Shown here in pieces: positions 6,474-62,000 of a stretch of 64,000 bases of DNA. The position numbers and the translations under genes are program-made. Position 1 is the first letter of the stretch. Each line of letters starts with the position of its first letter. The stretch spans positions 186,001-250,000 of the forward strand of contig JNDT01002236.1 of NCBI GenBank assembly GCA_000697055.1, given 5' to 3'. Under the pieces are notes generated by a model. That model made no database searches and was not told the DNA's origin. It was given only the letters and a program-made list of their open reading frames with translations. This DNA comes from Saksenaea vasiformis B4078 (lineage: Eukaryota > Mucoromycota > Mucoromycetes > Mucorales > Saksenaeaceae).

Positions 6474-7231
6474 CTATTCCTCTTCATCTTCTTTACCAGA
6501 GGATTGACTTTCCAAATCACAAAAGATACGTGCTCTTGCTTCTTCATAAGCAGCTTTTCGTTCTTCATAGGTCATTGTTTTTCTTTCTTCTTGAGATTGT
6601 CGTTTTGATGGATGTGAATGCGGTAATGGATTTCGACGCATAATCTTGAATTTGGGAGTTTCAGTTGGTTGTGTATCCTGTTCAACAAGATCTGGAAACC
6701 GGACGGATGGTCTATCATTGGTTAGTTATTTTGTTTTGTTTTTATATGATGGAACTTACAGTTCTGTATATGGGTTTTTACACAGAAATACGGAGCGTCG
6801 AACGGGATCGTAAAAATGACTCAATTTAAAGTATGGGGCTACTTTGTGTACCATCAAACGTTGATAAGAGTTCATTTGTGGTAGATCCAGTCGATACAAC
6901 CTAGTAGATCATATATGTATGTCTTTTGATGAGCTGTCATATTCATTTGTGTGAGTTGTCTTAACTGATAATTATTGATAAAGGCTTCTAGATCTCTTTC
7001 CAGTTTAAGTAAAAATAGGCGTTCCTGTGGTTTTTTCAGTAGACCTAGGATAAATTCGTCTAAGGAGGGAGACGAGCCGGACTGGTGCTGTTGGTATGGT
7101 GAGGGAGAGACCTCTGGAGTATGTGGTCTTTTATCGGTAGACGAAGGTTGACGTCGTAGTAAAATAGGGGTTGATGACGATCGTATTGTATCGTCTTTAG
7201 AAGAATGGCTGGCATCTTGGTTGTCAGACAT
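6474..7231 (-). CDS. R3H and SUZ domain RNA-binding protein
   Basis: Three exons in phase (6966-7231, 6760-6900, 6474-6711) give 214 residues. A disordered Ser/Pro-rich N-terminus precedes an R3H domain: LLKLERDLEAFI, then across the first intron LPQMNSYQRLMVHKVAPYF and SHFYDP. A SUZ motif follows (PKFKIMRR and TYEERKAAYEEARARIF). The R3H-SUZ pair is typical of single-stranded nucleic acid binding proteins of the R3HDM/ARPP21/Encore group, here in a minimal form. Likely a cytoplasmic mRNA-binding regulator; the target is unknown. It shares a 735-bp intergenic region with the divergent deubiquitinase gene. Confidence 0.9.
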
Positions 7232-7966
7232 TGTAGCGATGAGAGACTTTTTTAAATGGAAAAGGTGAGGGATGGTATGTTATTTCCTTAATGCTTTAAA
7301 AAGAGAGATTTTGTTTTGTTTTGTTTTTCTTTTTTACCATAATCTAAGACGATGGACAACTTTTGCCAAACCATGAAATAAAAGAAAAAGGGAAGAAAAG
7401 AGAAGAAAAAAGAAAAAAAAAAGGAAGGCAAAATCAGATAAAAGCAATACCTTCCCGGGTTTCCAGCCCAACAAGTTACTTATATATCTGGAGATTAGGA
7501 GGAAGGAACCAAAAAAGAAAAAAGAAAAAAAAAGGATTTGTTGTATAACTCCCCCAATTCACGTGTGTGTGGAAAAAAAAGAAGAAGAAGAGGTAAAAGA
7601 GAGAGAAAGGGAGAGGGAAAGAGGAAAAGATAATTTTTTTTTTAGTCCGCCATTGACTGTCTGTGTGTGCGTGTGCGTGTGCGTGTATGTGTGTGTTGTG
7701 TGTGTGTGTTGCACCGCAACGTACTCGCACCAGGTTTCACTTTTTTTTATTTTCCTCTCTTTGTAGGAGAATGTATTTCTTATAAAAGCAACATAGCAAA
7801 AACCCGCATTTAAATTTCACCATAAACGCAATGACTTATGCAAAACCAGGATAAAAGCACTTGAAAAAAATAATAATAATAATAGCATTAGAGTGGGAAA
7901 GGGAAACTCGATATATAAAGTCACGGTATCGTGTTTTCGTCACTTCTTACGTTATCTCTTTCAACA
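7232..7966. promoter_or_regulatory. Bidirectional intergenic region with purine and TG microsatellites
   Basis: Separates divergently transcribed R3H-SUZ (-) and UCH (+) genes. It contains poly-T, a GAAAAGAG-type purine tract (7375-7425 and 7565-7625) and a (TG)n-like run at 7661-7711. No gene seen; probable shared promoter. Confidence 0.5.
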
Positions 7967-41282: not shown

Positions 41283-41689
41283 ATATTTGACATATCATTA
41301 TCATTATACACACTTCATCCACTAAGTCTAAACGATCTTTATTTGAGTTTCTCATACCATCGGCACTTCATCCACAGATAAACCTGATCTATTCAGACAT
41401 CTAACAACGGATAGCTACAATCTGAAGATAATAGGATTCTGTCATGATCTTAAGGTACCCTCCGACATCTCCTATCTTTTGATTAGTGCGACAAGACAAT
41501 TACGATGATTACGATCTTAGCATAGACACAGTGATTAGCCAGACGTCTCTGTCCCTGAACAATGGGATTGTTATTCAGATTCAGCTAGATGACAGCTCCC
41601 CGACCTGACATTAATAAGCATGGATCATCATCGATCCATGATGATTACTCAGAGCTTACGCGTCCTCTGATTACCAAGATACTCAATAA

Positions 41690-41816
41690 GCATTGAACAG
41701 TATAAATAGTGCTGGTAGACATCTGTAATCATTATCTTTACTTCTGAATAAACCTCTACCAAGAGTCTGAAAGTATTTTCTTATTGTTTCCCCTCTTACT
41801 AATTTTTCACTAACCA
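41690..41816. repeat. LTR-like module related to copy B
   Basis: Contains TTCAATAAGCATT, GTATAAATAGTGCTG, GACATCTGTAATCAT, TTCTGAATAAA and CAAGAGTCTGAAAGTATTTTC. The same blocks occur at 57,990-58,040 and 58,370-58,475. TATAAATA and GAATAAA are about 45 bp apart. Confidence 0.55.
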
Positions 41817-42066
41817 AGGCTAATCAAGGCTAACCAAAGCTGATCAGTTCTCCACCTAGTTCTTCGTGATGCGTCAATAATTCCTTATATTCTCTATTGT
41901 GCGCGATGGAAAATAAATGTAAAGAATGATCATGTTACAGCTACAAACATAAAATTGTGCACACATATTCTTCTACATCAATACTGATAGATCCACTGCT
42001 TTCAATATTAAGTTCATCATCAATCACAGTTTGCTCCTGAAGCATGGTCATCATAACAGAAAGAAG

Positions 42067-42092
42067 GGGCATAATGAGAATCCCTAGTTCAA
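42067..42092 (+). repeat. Left terminal inverted repeat of the polymerase element
   Basis: 26 bp beginning GGGCATAATGAGAATCCC, matched exactly in inverse orientation at 46,845-46,870. Similarity stops abruptly on the inner side. Confidence 0.95.
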
Positions 42093-42211
42093 ACAACTAA
42101 CTAACAACGAGCCGTCTCTCACTCCATATTCGTTTTTTTTTCCGGTTCACCAAAATTGGCCCGACACAACGGCCTTCTTGCGTTATTTTCTCCTCGTATT
42201 TTTTGCAGGCA

Positions 42212-42667
42212 ATGACTTCGCTGGATGAGTTCGCGTTAGAAATGAATTTCAATCTGAACCGACCGAAAAATTCAGTGAAGCACAACGAAATAATGACTAA
42301 GCAATGTTGGCAATGCGGCGTTTCGAAGGATTTATGCGACTTCTACCCGAAACGCAAAGTTTGCAAGAAATGCTATCTCGAGAGGCGGCGGTCGCCTTCG
42401 CCTCAGACCGGTACGGGCGCGCCAGGAACTTCGGTTTCGGCTTCGACTCAGACCGGAAGAGCGTCAACGAGGCAATTGGAGGATGCGGACTTGCCGATCG
42501 TTGACGTCGAACCGAGCCCGGACGGACGCGTTAGCCACGAATTACGCCAGCACTTGCCCACAGCGTTTGCAGGTCTGGGAATGATGGCGGTCGGCGTGCT
42601 CACCGCGAACTTCCCACTGATCGGCGCCGGGTACTTAAGCATGCTATTCGGTTCCAGCCGTCGTTAG
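42212..42667 (+). CDS. Small zinc-motif protein with C-terminal hydrophobic segment
   Basis: About 151 residues; ATG at 42212, with an alternative at 42293 (MTKQCWQCG). The zinc-ribbon-like motif is CWQCGVSKDLCDFYPKRKVC followed by KKCYLE (C-x2-C, then C-x2-C). A disordered Ser/Thr/Gln-rich linker follows, and the C-terminus has hydrophobic stretches (AFAGLGMMAVGVLTANFPL, GAGYLSMLF), perhaps a membrane anchor. The related motif at the other end of the element (46,494-46,664) suggests a family belonging to this element. Function unknown. Confidence 0.65.
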   Translation: MTSLDEFALEMNFNLNRPKNSVKHNEIMTKQCWQCGVSKDLCDFYPKRKVCKKCYLERRRSPSPQTGTGAPGTSVSASTQTGRASTRQLEDADLPIVDVEPSPDGRVSHELRQHLPTAFAGLGMMAVGVLTANFPLIGAGYLSMLFGSSRR

Positions 42668-42886
42668 TCCTGGGAATTTTTAAAAGCGTCTCGGTATCGA
42701 TTTACGTCGTTGGTATCATTCACGCGCCACTAGGTGCCATGGAGTTATCTCTCCGTTCTCTCTCACCTTTCCTTTGGTATACACCCCCGTCAACGTCTTC
42801 TTTATCACTTTATCGGTCACGTTTAGGTCACCTTTCATCTTCCTTTGTCGACTGGTGTTTATTGTTGACGTCGTGAAGTGCTGCGG

Positions 42887-45396
42887 TTAGTTTACTAGTT
42901 CGATCAACTTACGGTACATTATCTCGTTTCGACGTTTAGTTACCCTTTCTTCGTACTCGGATTGCGTTTCCGTGTCCGACTTCTCAACGTCATGTGCGAT
43001 GTCTTTTAGCCTCGTAACCTTCGATTTAGCAACGTAACTTCCGTTTGTCTTCCTGTATCCGTACGTTTTACATCCAACGGAGACGGCTTCATCTATCTCA
43101 CACTCATGTTTGAGTTCGCCCAGATTGTTTCCTCGCCCAGGTCCCATGAAATAATCAGCTAAACCATCATGATCTTCGCTTCGACAGTCCGTTACGACAC
43201 TGGCAGTATCACAGTAGTACACGTTGTATCCCTTTGACCGAATACTTTGCAGAAGATCGTACATTAAGTCTCGGGCGTACGACGTAATCGCCGATGCGAT
43301 CGCTATATTTACGTTGTTTAGAAGTACATTCTTCGTCTCGTACGCTAGGAACAAGTTAACCTTGCGGATATACGAACAGTGACCTAGTAGCTCGGCCGCG
43401 ATCAGTTGGGATTCGCTTCTTTTCCCGTAACAACCTATAACTTGCCTATCGTACTTCTTAAACCCCCATGTCCCATAGAACGCGTTGACCGTAATCTTCC
43501 CAGCGTACTCTTTTCCTTTCTCTCCCTTTTCCTTCGCGTCTTCTTCACCTTGAACAGGACTTGAAAGATGTCAGCCGTTACGTAATCGAGTTCGCACGCA
43601 AATCCTCGTAATAGTTTAATCGAGTATCCCAGTTCTATCATTCGGATTATCGATGGCGAAAAGGCGGCATAATTTTCCATATTTGTCATCCTAGGCAATG
43701 TCCCGGCCCACGGATACTCCGACGTAAAATCGTAGAGCTGGAGCCTTTTCTTCACGATGCCTCTGAAGAATGCCTCGTTTCGACCGCCCATGTACCCCCT
43801 TTCAATGAATCGGTGGCATGGTTCGCTGAGAACGTAAATAGGCCACTTTTCGGGCTTGTAGTAACTGGAAAGGAATACTTGCTTTGAGTACGGCGAAGCC
43901 GATACTTGCGCCAATGGATCTGTCTTGAATTGGTCAAACGCCGTCCTTCGATATTCGTTCAACACATTGAACAGAATCTCGCAATCTTGTCGGTTATACT
44001 CGGCGTAGATTTCCTCGTTGACCCACGACTCCTTTGTCACGTTCAACACGTCAATGTTAGGTATTTTTCCGCCGAACCCCATGTCTTTAGCAATCTTATC
44101 TAAACTACCAGGTATTAACGAACAACTATCTCGGAATATAACGTATTTCTTCGAATCAAACCACACCTTTACGCTCAACCATTGCCCATTGAGATATGGT
44201 AACTCGATCGGATGAGTCCTATTCTGGTCACACAACTTCAACGCGGCTTCGAACAAAATATGCTGATCGTAATTCGATCCGTTATGAAACCACACGACTT
44301 CGTTAGGGTGAAAGTCCCTAACGTGTTCAAGGAACTCCTCCGAACATTTTTCCCCTTTGGTTTGGTAGAAATGGTCCTCACAAAGTTCACCCAACATGAT
44401 CGGTACGTGTCTGTGCGTTGACAGGTTGGACGTGTCCGGTTCTCGGTATGACTCGAAATCAGCGACGATCAGCTTGCTGTCGGGATCTTTTGGCTTGGTC
44501 GTTATGATTCGGGATAAGTGAGACTTCGTCGTCGACTTCATCATCATCTTTACTGTTCGTTCGGATAAGTGGGCCTCGTGCACTACCAGCCGAGCATGAT
44601 CCGCAGTTACGAAATAGACACAGTTGTTTATCGTAAAATCAGGGTCGAAGTTATCCACGTCGGCTCGATCGCATGCGACGAAATAGTCGTGAGGGGTGAA
44701 CCGTGTCATGTCGATCGGCGAGTTCGGAGGTTTGGTTTTCACAGCGTAAAGGATCTTTTGTTGTTGACTGTACCTGTCCGCGAACGACATCTCTATCCAC
44801 TCGTCAAGCCTCCCTTGTTTGTATGATAACCAAGCCGAGTATACGTTTACGACACACCTAGTCTTGGTATGCAGGAGGACAAACGCCCAGTATCCGCCGC
44901 CCAACTCCAACGATACACCTTCACCAGCCGAGGGTCGAACATGACCAGACACCGAATGGTGAGAATCCTTTCGCGTGATATGAGCCGATAACGCCGACAC
45001 AAACACGTTGAAATCCTCGTATTGTCCCATTATCGCCGCCAACTCAAATATCATTTGCGAGGGGGTTGCGTTGATAAAACGGTCTCCGTCCATAGCTATC
45101 GTATACATGTACGCGCGGTCAAGGGTTGTACAACTGTTCTGAGCCATTTCATCGAGCTGGACCAAGGTAACTAGGCTGTCTATGGCTATCTGCTGCTTCA
45201 TCACGAAAGCCGCTATATGGTCAATCCCACGGGAGCACTTGACCACTTCGTCACGTAGCTCGGTATCGGTTGACTGGGAAAGCTTATTTCCATCGGCTAG
45301 GTCTTTCCTGAACGCTTCCACGATGCTATCGATGCTAGCAACGGTGCGATGGCTAGTGTTATCATGCTCGTGACTCATTTTACCTGGATTGAACAT
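42887..45396 (-). pseudogene. Protein-primed family B DNA polymerase, broken
   Basis: Two overlapping frames (43,435-45,396 and 42,887 to about 43,530) together make about 835 residues, joined across a single-nucleotide shift near 43,525-43,560. An N-terminal extension of about 300 residues has no recognised domain. The exonuclease motifs are ADFESY (Exo I), WFHNGSNYDQH (Exo II) and EYNRQDCEIL (Exo III). The polymerase motifs are YMGGRNEAF, DFTSEYP (motif A), KITVNAFYG (motif B) and YCDTASVV (motif C), where the usual second Asp of DTD is Ala. TKTYGY-like thumb residues appear as GCKTYGYRKTNG. The family replicates linear DNA using a terminal-protein primer. The Asp-to-Ala change and the frameshift suggest this copy is inactive. 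Confidence 0.85.
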
Positions 45397-45448
45397 GGCA
45401 ACGAATGTTGCACTCGAATGTTTTGTAAAAACGCTTTGACATTTTCAG

Positions 45449-45980
45449 TTATTGGTCCATAACGGACAAAGACGTTTGACTGTCGGTGGCATACCGGTCA
45501 AACAACACGTATATCTCGGAACTAGGAGTGACTTCGGTAGGTGATAAGTGATCGGTGATACCGTCCTTAGGTGGAAGTGACATGACTACCGGGTGGACTA
45601 GTTGGATCTGTTTAATGCGGCACTTCACTTTCCACGTAAGATTAGTGTGTTGGTCCTGACTGGGTTCGCGGCTTGAACAGACCACCCCGAATTCGAGGAT
45701 AGGGATGCAGCGCATAGCGCTGGCCTTGTTCCGGAACACACACCGCAACTCGGCACCGAACACCCCACCACGATGATCTTATCGTCGATGGACACAATAC
45801 GACTTCATCGTCTTCGAGGGTTCTTTCGGTCGAAACAGTGACGTTATTGAAACTGTAGATTCTCCCGTCGTCTCCTTTGAATCTTCGTACCTTTTGCTTC
45901 GTCGTGTTACGCCAACGGTCGAAAGAAACATCGACTTGCTCGTGGTCGAAGTGGTACATTTCGTCTTCCTTCTGACTCAT
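45449..45980 (-). pseudogene. Unknown element-encoded ORF, one frameshift
   Basis: Starts MSQKEDEMYHFDHEQVDVSF (45,980) and continues with RFKGDDGRIYSFNNVTVSTE. At a GGGG run near 45,765-45,770 the protein-like frame changes to one with FGAELRCVFRNKASAMRCIP and IYVLFDRYATDSQTSLSVMD. Combined length is about 175 residues. No family recognised. Its place beside the polymerase suggests a replication or structural role, such as a terminal protein, but nothing in the sequence shows this. Confidence 0.45.
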
Positions 45981-46009
45981 CGTAACGTCGATGATATCCT
46001 CATCGTCCG

Positions 46010-46318
46010 TTAGTTCTTCGATCGTCGTTTTTCTTTTTTGAGCGTTTGGCTCGATTCAGGTACATCGGTCTCAGAGGGAGGTGGACGCGCGTTTAATAAC
46101 TCGATAGCCTTCCTAACTAGGTAGACCTCCACCGTGGCCGGACATCGCTCATATGCATCTGGCGATACGGGAATAAAACCATGAACTTTGTAGAATTCTT
46201 CCCACGCATCAGCAACGAGAAAATCCTGCACTTCGTTCGGGCAATCGTTGAAAGTTGGCTCATCAAACTCGATGAAAAGCCTAACAACAGGGTCTAGATC
46301 GGCATATATATTCTTCTC
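46010..46318 (-). CDS. Unknown element-encoded ORF
   Basis: Minus-strand frame open from a stop near 46,320 down to 46,010, with VRLFIEFDEPTFNDCPNEVQ, DFLVADAWEEFYKVHGFIPV and a basic end KKEKRRSKN. No ATG is visible at its 5' end, so the start may be lost, spliced or non-canonical. It ends just 30 bp before the start of the next ORF, and a shifted frame connects the two, so they may once have been one gene. Confidence 0.4.
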   Translation of the reverse strand, partial: EKNIYADLDPVVRLFIEFDEPTFNDCPNEVQDFLVADAWEEFYKVHGFIPVSPDAYERCPATVEVYLVRKAIELLNARPPPSETDVPESSQTLKKEKRRSKN

Positions 46319-46493
46319 CTTAGTTTCTGACTATCGAGAGAGGAACTCACTATTTGGAAATTCAATTTGGTGATGGGTCTATCGTGTCAGGAATTTTTGT
46401 ATTTTTAAATTAGTCGTGTTTTTTAAATGGTCATCGCCTTTAGCTGTGAGTTCATCTCTTCCAACATCACCCTCAATTCTTTCAACTCGCTCT

Positions 46494-46664
46494 TTACTTC
46501 GTTTCGAATATTGATAGCATTTCCAACATTTGAGACTCTCTTTTCTTTCTTAGTTCGTAGCAGCGTTTGTTGTGACATTTTCTGCACAACCGATGTCTGC
46601 CGTAAAATTCCGGCTCATCGATCGGACAATCGGGATTCTTACAAATTCTTTTCTCGTCTGTCAT
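46494..46664 (-). CDS. Small zinc-motif protein near the right terminus
   Basis: 56 residues from MTDEKRICKNPDCPIDEPEF through CRKCHNKRCYELRKKRE, with a C-x4-C..C-x2-C arrangement like that at the left end of the element (42,212-42,667). It points inward from the right inverted repeat. Short, but the paired arrangement supports it. Confidence 0.5.
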   Translation of the reverse strand: MTDEKRICKNPDCPIDEPEFYGRHRLCRKCHNKRCYELRKKRESQMLEMLSIFETK

Positions 46665-46844
46665 CGTGAGAATCCTTTTGATGTAATTAATTGATGTGAG
46701 ATTCAATTTTCCTTTTTTTTAAGCTGAATCGATAATCCAGAGTGAAATTCGGTAAAGGATGACGGCTGTGTCAGATATGAAATCGTCGAATGTCAAAAAA
46801 ACAACATCTCTTTAGCGAACGAGCGCGCACATCCAACGCAACTC

Positions 46845-46870
46845 TTGAACTAGGGATTCTCATTATGCCC
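46845..46870 (-). repeat. Right terminal inverted repeat of the polymerase element
   Basis: Exact inverted copy of 42,067-42,092. The sequence beyond it (from 46,871) is tnp2 coding sequence. Confidence 0.95.
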
Positions 46871-59019: not shown

Positions 59020-62000
59020 TCACACGTTTCTATTACGTGGAGCAGTTTCAGTTGAATTTGGTCTAGTAAAGACCGCTGGTCGTTGTCCTTGCTGAATCAT
59101 AGCTATGAATATTGCATGAATGTTTCTTGATGCATTGACATCCCGTTGCCAGACAGTATGACAGTTATTGCAAACTAATACTGAATGCAAGCATCGATGT
59201 TCACCAATATCCATTTTTGCCAGAGCTTTGACTCCGCACCGTGAGCAAACTTGGGATGTGTTGTATTCATCCATGTCAATCGTAATCAGTCGTCCGCAGA
59301 CGTCAGCACGCCTGAGCAACTTCCTGCACTTCTCCGCCAGTCCACATGGCTTTCCCTTGAACACCTTTCGACCAAATCTGGAAGCGCCATACACAACCAC
59401 AGGAACCTTGGTTGTGTCATTCTCCGTAAACGCCTTCCGCCATTTGCTGTTATTAGAGGTCACAAACAAAGTTGTTAAACTATTGTCATGCTCCTGTCGT
59501 CCTTATTCAACAACATAGTCATAACTTACTTCTCCTTAGGTGGAGGGGGTTCACCGGCTTCTCGATCCCGCCTGTTCCTCCGCTTTCTCCTTCTTCGTGT
59601 TCCGTCAGGGCGAAACATTTCATCATCGGCGAACTGGCCATGTCGACGAGATCTGGATAGATTATCAGCGTTACCTAGAGGGTCGTGATATTTAACGCCG
59701 CCATCAATGAAGATCTTGATCATTTCTTCGTCTAATCGTTGGCGACCTTGGTAATTTAAAAATTTCAAGCCTTGTATAGCCCTTTGGCCATAGAAAGCTG
59801 TCACTTCAGGCATGGCGTTCAACGTTGATACTATGAATTCGCAGATGCGGTCCATGTTGGCCGTTCTGTTAGTGCTGATTTCTGATTCAGCTGTTCGTAC
59901 AACGTCTGTCTTGCTAGAGTTGATTCGTTGCGTTGTCTTTTTAAAACCAGCCTTCGTATAGTACTCTGCTGTCGAAAGTCGTCTGATTTCATGTGGTTCA
60001 AATGTGACATCATCATTGTCACCTACAGAAGCCAAACAAAAGTTCAGGAACGCGATGGAACATGAATGATATCTCGTATTACGATTACAATTACCTTCGA
60101 TTTCTTCGGGTACACCTTCGGGTACGCCTTCGTACATCTTCCGGCTCTTCACCTTCAACAGGCGCCAACATACCTTCGTCGGGAATATCCTGGTCATCCT
60201 CCACTATGATATACAAAAGTTTAGATTTACCAATATCTACTTGTTATTGCAACGTCCCCGTCATTGTTGCATTGGAGTATCACGCATAAGACTCAGGTGA
60301 ATCTACTACTTACGTTCGACATCGGGCTCTTCGAGATACACGTTATTGCTTCCATTGCTGCAGACATACACCTCAGTCACACCAGGATCGGTCCCCCAGA
60401 CATTCATATATTCCATTTCCCATTCCTGAAAGTCTTCTGGGGTCAATGTAGGTAGACGTTCCTGCGGCGTAATAGGTTTGTCGAATGGAGTCGAGACTGC
60501 TAAACCATCCGTAAGGATATATCCTGAAAAGATCATACTAGCAATCAACGATGAAGATTGTAGTAATGATTAGTAAGCTGCAGCCAACAGATTTCCTTGT
60601 GTTATTTACCGAGGTTGATGTTTGATCTTACGAAGATCGAGTAAATTAACCAATGTTTCGCCGCCATGCACATAATTGGTCAGTCCCACAGCACGCAATA
60701 TCGTAACCATATCCTGGTTAGTGAGCTTGATGTACTTTTTGGTGAATGAAGGCTTAGGTACAAGATTGAAAAGACGTTGTTGCTTGAAGAGATGGTCTAA
60801 CTCGGGACGAAAAGTCTGGTCATACAAGCGTTGATTGGCTTGCGGGTCGTTTAAGTATATCGTTGATTGTAATATCTGCTGCTTGATTTGTCCAACCGTT
60901 TCGTCCAGCAGTCGTAAAGATTCATCACTCAAATAGCTAATTCGGTCGCGTTCCAACGTCGCATCGTTGATTATCACAGTACGTATCAAATTAGCGAGAG
61001 TTGACCGTCGACGCCGGCCCATCGTTGGGAACTCTGGAATCTGTCTAATTTTCTGGGAGCACCAGGAGCGTGGCGGTTCCGTTTGAACACTATCGATAAG
61101 CTGTAGTTGTTGATCGTTATAGCGTTCAAGATGGACAGCGATGTTGTACGCGTACTTCATGAATAAATCGGTATGGCGAGAGATAACTGCTGTTGTCAAC
61201 GTCGGCTGTTGCTGTACTACTGGCACGCCAACTTGTTGACATTGTTCTATTACAAATTCCAAAAGCTGCTGATTTCCAAACGTATTGTTACCGTAATAGC
61301 GCTGCATGGCTTGATCAAAATGTTGCCGGGCGGTTGTGAACTGTTGTTCCTGGTTTTGCAGCTCACCGGTTCGTTGTTCTAATTGACGAGCCATGTCGTT
61401 TATCCGATCGATTATATTATGTGTGCCATCATCAGTTATGAGTTCCAAATTGAACTGCTGAGTCATTTGCAACAACAAATCGAGCCTGGCTTGGACACCG
61501 GCTATCCTACCAGCCACCGTTTGGTCGTTCCAGCTTGCATCATCAAGTCGGTACTGAAGACCGAGATTAGTCGATAACTGTCGAAGAAATTGCATGGATC
61601 GTTGATATACGAGTATACAGCGGAGAACTGCCTGTAAGAGAAGAACCTGGGGTCCTACTGGTTGCATATCATGGGGCCCAGTGAATGGTTGACCGAGATA
61701 TTCCAAGTGATTGAATCCAATATCAATCAACACTGTTCGAGCACCATGTTGCGGCTGGATGATAGAGTCATGGAGCGATCGATAAAGAGACTCCAGGGTC
61801 TTCTGCGTTGCATCTTGGTGATGTTGAAGGTTGGCCAAGTTGAAAATGACCGTAATGTCGATATCAGCTTCGTCCATTACTTGTACAATGCTATCGTTCA
61901 CATGCTCGGTGTCCCCAAAGTTCGTTAATGATGAAGGAAATATTGGTGGAAACTCGTTATTATTCATACAGCATCCCAGAATGAACAACCCAAGTTTGTC

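Follow-up and report, generated by a model that had tools for sequence, protein, structure and literature searches.

The window analyzed here is a stretch of 64,000 nucleotides from the fungus Saksenaea vasiformis B4078 (contig JNDT01002236.1, positions 186,001 to 250,000), and it holds a 4804-bp element (42067-46870) with terminal inverted repeats and a gene for a DNA polymerase. We propose that this element probably derives from a minimal linear replicon of about 4.3 kb, a copy of which was captured in a chromosome and has since decayed. In our best reading the replicon has no capsid and is related to linear plasmids and Polintons. The original prediction, made from the sequence of the window, had offered two choices, a linear plasmid that has integrated and a self-replicating transposon of an undescribed class. 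Our results favor a captured linear replicon and disfavor an integrase-driven transposon because no target-site duplications were found, the coding space is filled by the polymerase gene and two small open reading frames (ORFs), and there are signs of purifying selection on the polymerase.

The 26-bp exact inverted termini that had been predicted to enclose 4.8 kb were borne out, the two arms being 100% complementary over 26 bp. When the host assembly (38.7 Mb in 666 contigs) was searched with this 26-mer, allowing up to three mismatches, five sites were found and all of them are element ends (two on C525, two on C558, and one on C152); a control pattern, the 26-mer written backwards, had no site. 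The presence of other copies that share these termini but differ in their flanks had been named beforehand as a check. Such copies exist within the same genome, and therefore the elements with these termini are a mobile family. Two of these copies are complete, namely, C558 (L029:2496-6838, 4343 bp, with 27-bp ends) and C600 (L030:2800-7122, 4323 bp), while C152 has kept one end together with ORF3 and roughly the last quarter of the polymerase gene. Polymerase matches, mostly pieces, were found on at least 14 contigs with the window query and on at least 5 more with the outside relative P0001, which makes at least 19, of which 15 carry pieces and are additional to the contigs of the complete copies and of C152. 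The complete copies are 64-82% identical to one another in aligned pieces of DNA (72-77% in most of the long pieces), and the gene plan is constant: ORF1, the polymerase gene, and then ORF3 on the opposite strand. The sequence (A)GGGGCATAATGA ends the three complete copies and C152, the right end in the window being one C short, and past this motif the ends of C600 are unlike those of the other copies. In C600 the two ends (L030:2800-2938 and 6984-7122) are identical over 139 bp, against 26-27 bp in the other complete copies. One end of C600 may therefore have been copied from its counterpart, which would be in keeping with a linear replicon. The claim that base composition is unlike that of the surroundings holds only in that it is mildly different; it was overstated, as the GC content of the element (0.469) lies inside the range of other 4.8-kb slices of the window (mean 0.435, standard deviation 0.019, maximum 0.478). 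Across the complete copies GC content is 0.45-0.47 (A/T 53-55%).

The polymerase belongs to family B and is of the protein-primed type. It had been predicted to be of the phi29/linear-plasmid/Polinton type, and this was confirmed by a Pfam match of the window polymerase to DNA_pol_B_2 (PF03175, E 2.5e-19); the family match of the C600 polymerase has an E of 3.2e-35. In C600 the enzyme is encoded in a single open frame of 1052 amino acids (aa), with 15 TGG codons for tryptophan and no internal TGA, and in C558 there is a frame break late in the gene. The window gene is in at least four open pieces and has at least four lesions; its N-terminal part contains an insertion of about 606 bp. From its main open frame about 55 codons (net) have been lost between motifs A and B, and the first 78 or so codons of this frame lie in the insertion. 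The residues checked in the exonuclease, A, and B motifs are identical in five of five aligned sequences, and both motif C aspartates are present in four of four, the frame of C558 stopping ahead of them. In the window, motif C reads DTA as against DTD in the relatives, and so the second aspartate is gone. The nearest relative outside this genome is P0001 (960 aa, 41% identity, longest contig 4380 bp), followed by P0002 (1072 aa, 33%) and P0003 (1101 aa, 26%); the remaining 8 of the 11 outside matches are shorter proteins with 23-27% identity. In a tree of 16 rows, which was built without named Polinton or linear-plasmid references, the window copy, C558, and C600 form one supported group that is joined by C170, P0001, and P0002 and then by P0003, the other nine rows being apart.

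In the polymerase gene, the share of sites that differ between C600 and C558 is 69% for synonymous and 10% for nonsynonymous ones, and the ratio of nonsynonymous to synonymous rates (dN/dS) is 0.056 over 710 codons, a rough value because it is near saturation. Five of ten polymerase comparisons were measurable and gave a dN/dS of 0.04-0.10; no ratio could be had from the other five, which were saturated and include each of the four that involve the window copy. For ORF3 the ratio is 0.12-0.40 in six pairs, which indicates that ORF3 is under purifying selection, and for ORF1, which is short and saturated, none could be obtained. Since synonymous sites are nearly saturated and yet dN/dS is low, the lineages must have diverged as working elements. 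Thus, judged from these ratios, the polymerase and ORF3 evolved under purifying selection as the copies diverged, and we infer that the window copy and C558 decayed after this divergence.

Several unknown ORFs had been noted in the element. Two of them, ORF1 and ORF3, belong to the constant gene plan, but the others are pieces of the broken polymerase gene or of the insertion. ORF3 has relatives in C558, C600, C152, and C495 and is 105-124 aa long across the four copies compared; that of C600 (119 aa) converges on the polymerase gene. By eye, the window ORF3 has a zinc-finger-like CxxC...CxxC N-terminus, a middle rich in Arg, Ser, and Pro, and a hydrophobic C-terminal stretch ending in SSRR. 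In C600, ORF1 is 85 aa with a zinc-finger-like CxxC part and a charged, helix-like tail (weak Pfam match to PF12325, E 8.4e-4, below cut-off), and in C558 it is stopped at 42 aa. About 270 bp of C600 lie outside genes and ends, and therefore there is no room for another large gene except antisense; the four antisense ORFs of at least 90 aa had no Pfam match. The Pfam search covered 7 window ORFs, which are not all of them, all 11 ORFs of at least 70 aa in C558, and all 6 ORFs of at least 90 aa in C600 together with its ORF1. Among these scanned ORFs of the three complete copies no integrase, capsid, or ATPase was found, as had been predicted, and no RNA polymerase either.

With parts of PMC11071308 as a guide, we looked for terminal-protein and vOTU domains ahead of the exonuclease. 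A candidate terminal-protein tyrosine is conserved in five of five sequences. The structural model of P0001 has a mean predicted local distance difference test score (pLDDT) of 69 and matched phi29 DNA polymerase far above the other listed polymerases; the order of its strands and helices fits a terminal-protein domain (D1) at low to middling confidence. From this order and the conserved tyrosine, a terminal-protein domain before the exonuclease is plausible. The candidate vOTU (D2) Cys and His are each present in four of five sequences; there was no Pfam OTU match, the models are poor, and fold searches gave no support.

No target-site duplication beyond chance was seen in any of the three complete copies. 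The flanks of the window element have a paralogue at C233 (74-75% identity) that serves as an empty site: the left-flank match runs directly into the right-flank match, a single base is changed where the two meet, and no base is duplicated or missing. This exact join and the lack of duplications therefore fit end joining of complete linear molecules and not an RVE-type integrase. C558 and C600 each have single-copy flanks, which makes them separate insertions but provides no empty site. Genes beside other copies (SET domain, biopterin hydroxylase, GH5 cellulase) are consistent with a eukaryotic host.

If the window element is a captured linear replicon, the free element would replicate as linear DNA with protein-bound ends, the N-terminus of the polymerase would serve as terminal protein and prime at the GGGG end, and ORF1 and ORF3 would assist by binding DNA, in the case of ORF3 perhaps at a membrane. 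Host end joining, and not an integrase, would insert full-length molecules at chromosomal breaks. A bolder reading, which is less likely, is a new class of nuclear self-replicating element, in effect an integrase-free transposon: a linear replicon of three genes, encoding a terminal protein-polymerase and two zinc-finger-like proteins, whose free form in the nucleus alternates with blunt, duplication-free chromosomal insertion. Several points weigh against a captured replicon. Neither a free linear molecule nor a terminal protein nor a transcript was observed, and the empty-site argument comes from one paralogous site with 74-75% identity. That the contigs of P0001 do not exceed 4380 bp is only suggestive of a free linear molecule, since such a contig could be short by chance. 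The fold of the N-terminus is uncertain because residues 178-319 of the P0001 model are poor and a separate model of the window N-terminus had a pLDDT of 52, with nothing convincing from structure searches. Finally, that both ends are kept in three of three complete copies could reflect a dedicated integration process, although this count is biased because complete copies were recognized by their termini.

A rival explanation is an undescribed class of self-replicating transposon that is mainly chromosomal, is copied by its own polymerase, and inserts bluntly and without duplication by means of ORF1, ORF3, or protein-capped ends. This would account for the recurrence of the same termini in several copies at different sites, for the full-length ends in all three complete copies, and for the exact join at the sole empty site; ORF3 of C600 and C558 also has weak PHROG matches to endonuclease VII (E about 5e-5). 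However, no nuclease catalytic domain was found at the curated cut-off in the scanned ORFs, and the few complete copies with their near-saturated divergence are unlike a transposition burst. We therefore regard this explanation as unlikely.

An endogenized very small DNA virus is quite improbable. Its coat protein would have gone unrecognized and could be ORF3, which has the hydrophobic stretch seen by eye and appears to be under purifying selection, and the best viral-library matches of the polymerase include bidnavirus and densovirus polymerases; but no capsid gene was recognized in the scanned ORFs and ORF3 is merely 105-124 aa in the copies compared. Improbable to much the same degree is the capture of mitochondrial linear plasmids in the nucleus, as in PMC10583447, the tables of which may include these or similar elements. 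Most elements in its general account encode an RNA polymerase and none was found in the scanned ORFs here; the TGG-only tryptophan codons of the C600 polymerase, where a mitochondrial code may read TGA as tryptophan, and the GC content of 45-47% also argue against this origin. It is very doubtful that the element is a non-autonomous derivative of a full-size Polinton with the integrase supplied in trans. The polymerase type and the terminal inverted repeats agree with this, but a target-site duplication is absent in three of three copies and the Pox_A32 packaging ATPase had no match in the genome, which is a limited test. The rve integrase had no match in the scanned element ORFs, the genome itself not having been searched for integrases, and a genome search for Capsid_NCLDV had no match but its control was silent too. 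An assembly artefact or chance inverted repeat is hardly credible because, even in an assembly split into 666 contigs, the three complete copies differ in their flanks and have diverged in sequence.

Table 1. Features of the element in the window
Feature	Position	Strand	Remarks
Left terminal inverted repeat	42067..42092	+	26 bp exact; starts GGGCATAATGAGA, extra G at 42066
ORF3	42293..42667	+	124 aa from inner ATG; frame open from 42203
Polymerase C-terminal part (broken)	42887..43354	-	motif C = YCDTAS
Polymerase main open frame (broken)	43435..45396	-	653 aa: part of N-terminal region, exonuclease, motif A
Insertion in polymerase gene	45159..45767		about 606 bp relative to C558; bounds approximate
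Polymerase N-terminal part	45768..46290	-	more than one frame; candidate terminal-protein region; bounds approximate
ORF1	46494..46664	-	56 aa in window, zinc-finger-like, then cut off
Right terminal inverted repeat	46845..46870	-	26 bp exact

Other repeats were also observed. To the left of the element, window 41400-41811 is an interspersed repeat with at least 41 genome matches listed, including itself, most of them 90-97% identical, and these matches stop about 255 bp short of the element. An unrelated repeat family with GGGGCATAATGAGAAC occurs at L060, L061, L062, L063, L065, and L066, and the proteins of the element had no match within the fetched stretches of this family. Pieces of genes that look Fanzor/TnpB-like by their motifs (L032:35-2004; L031:93-1821 and 6968-7635) abut or neighbor polymerase fragments at C152 and C538, and the window ORF at 60606-61988 on the reverse strand looks by eye like the first of them. 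The name was not confirmed by Pfam (five pieces) or by PDB sequence searches (three pieces).

Among known systems, Polintons (Mavericks) share with the element terminal inverted repeats and a protein-primed family B polymerase (PolB) with a long N-terminal region. They are 15-20 kb as against 4.3-4.8 kb here, they make a target-site duplication of 5-6 bp where none is seen here, and their integrase, ATPase, protease, and capsid were not recognized here. A Polinton/Maverick proper was ruled out by the size of the complete copies (4804, 4343, and 4323 bp) and by the lack of a target-site duplication and of an integrase in the scanned ORFs. The cytoplasmic linear plasmids of yeasts, or virus-like elements (VLEs), carry their own RNA polymerase and capping genes, which were not found here. 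Like the proposed replicon they are capsid-less and protein-primed, and the portion of PMC4431711 relied on here reports nuclear captures of them (nuclear sequences of plasmid and viral origin, NUPAVs) and an A/T content above 75%, compared to 53-55% in our copies. Unlike VLEs and NUPAVs, whole copies with both ends are present in chromosomes here, and kinship with the yeast plasmids is unproven.

In its general description, PMC10583447 covers 95 complete elements from plants and fungi, Mucoromycota included, that have a protein-primed PolB (pPolB) and terminal repeats and are classed as mitochondrial linear plasmids, most of them with an RNA polymerase. The likeness lies in a pPolB between terminal inverted repeats and in nuclear and/or mitochondrial copies, whereas in our element the RNA polymerase gene was not found and tryptophan is encoded only by TGG in the C600 polymerase. 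The vOTU domain is missing from mitochondrial plasmids according to the relevant part of PMC11071308, while here there are candidate vOTU Cys and His residues, for which the fold is unsupported. The element does not look like a mitochondrial linear plasmid. Bidnaviruses have a PolB of the Polinton lineage, as stated in the same part of that paper, and are among the best viral-library matches, but a parvovirus-type capsid or NS1 was not recognized here and our copies are chromosomal. Since an RNA polymerase was not found, tryptophan is TGG only, and the A/T content is unlike that of yeast plasmids, what appears to be new is a probable standard-code, three-gene, capsid-less linear replicon with complete copies in chromosomes, set apart from the elements of PMC10583447 as far as their general description goes. 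It is possible, though less than probable, that this three-gene element, free and linear in the nucleus as well as chromosomal, is among the smallest of the Polinton/linear-plasmid world. Protein-primed polymerases are common to Polintons, linear plasmids, and several virus families, and how coats and integrases were gained or lost is debated. A polymerase gene with two small genes, kept by selection and complete in chromosomes with no target duplications, would come close to a minimal unit with which to ask if linear DNA with protein caps is able to persist in the nucleus and enter chromosomes without an integrase, and it cautions that short fungal pPolB elements need not be mitochondrial plasmids or Polinton fragments.
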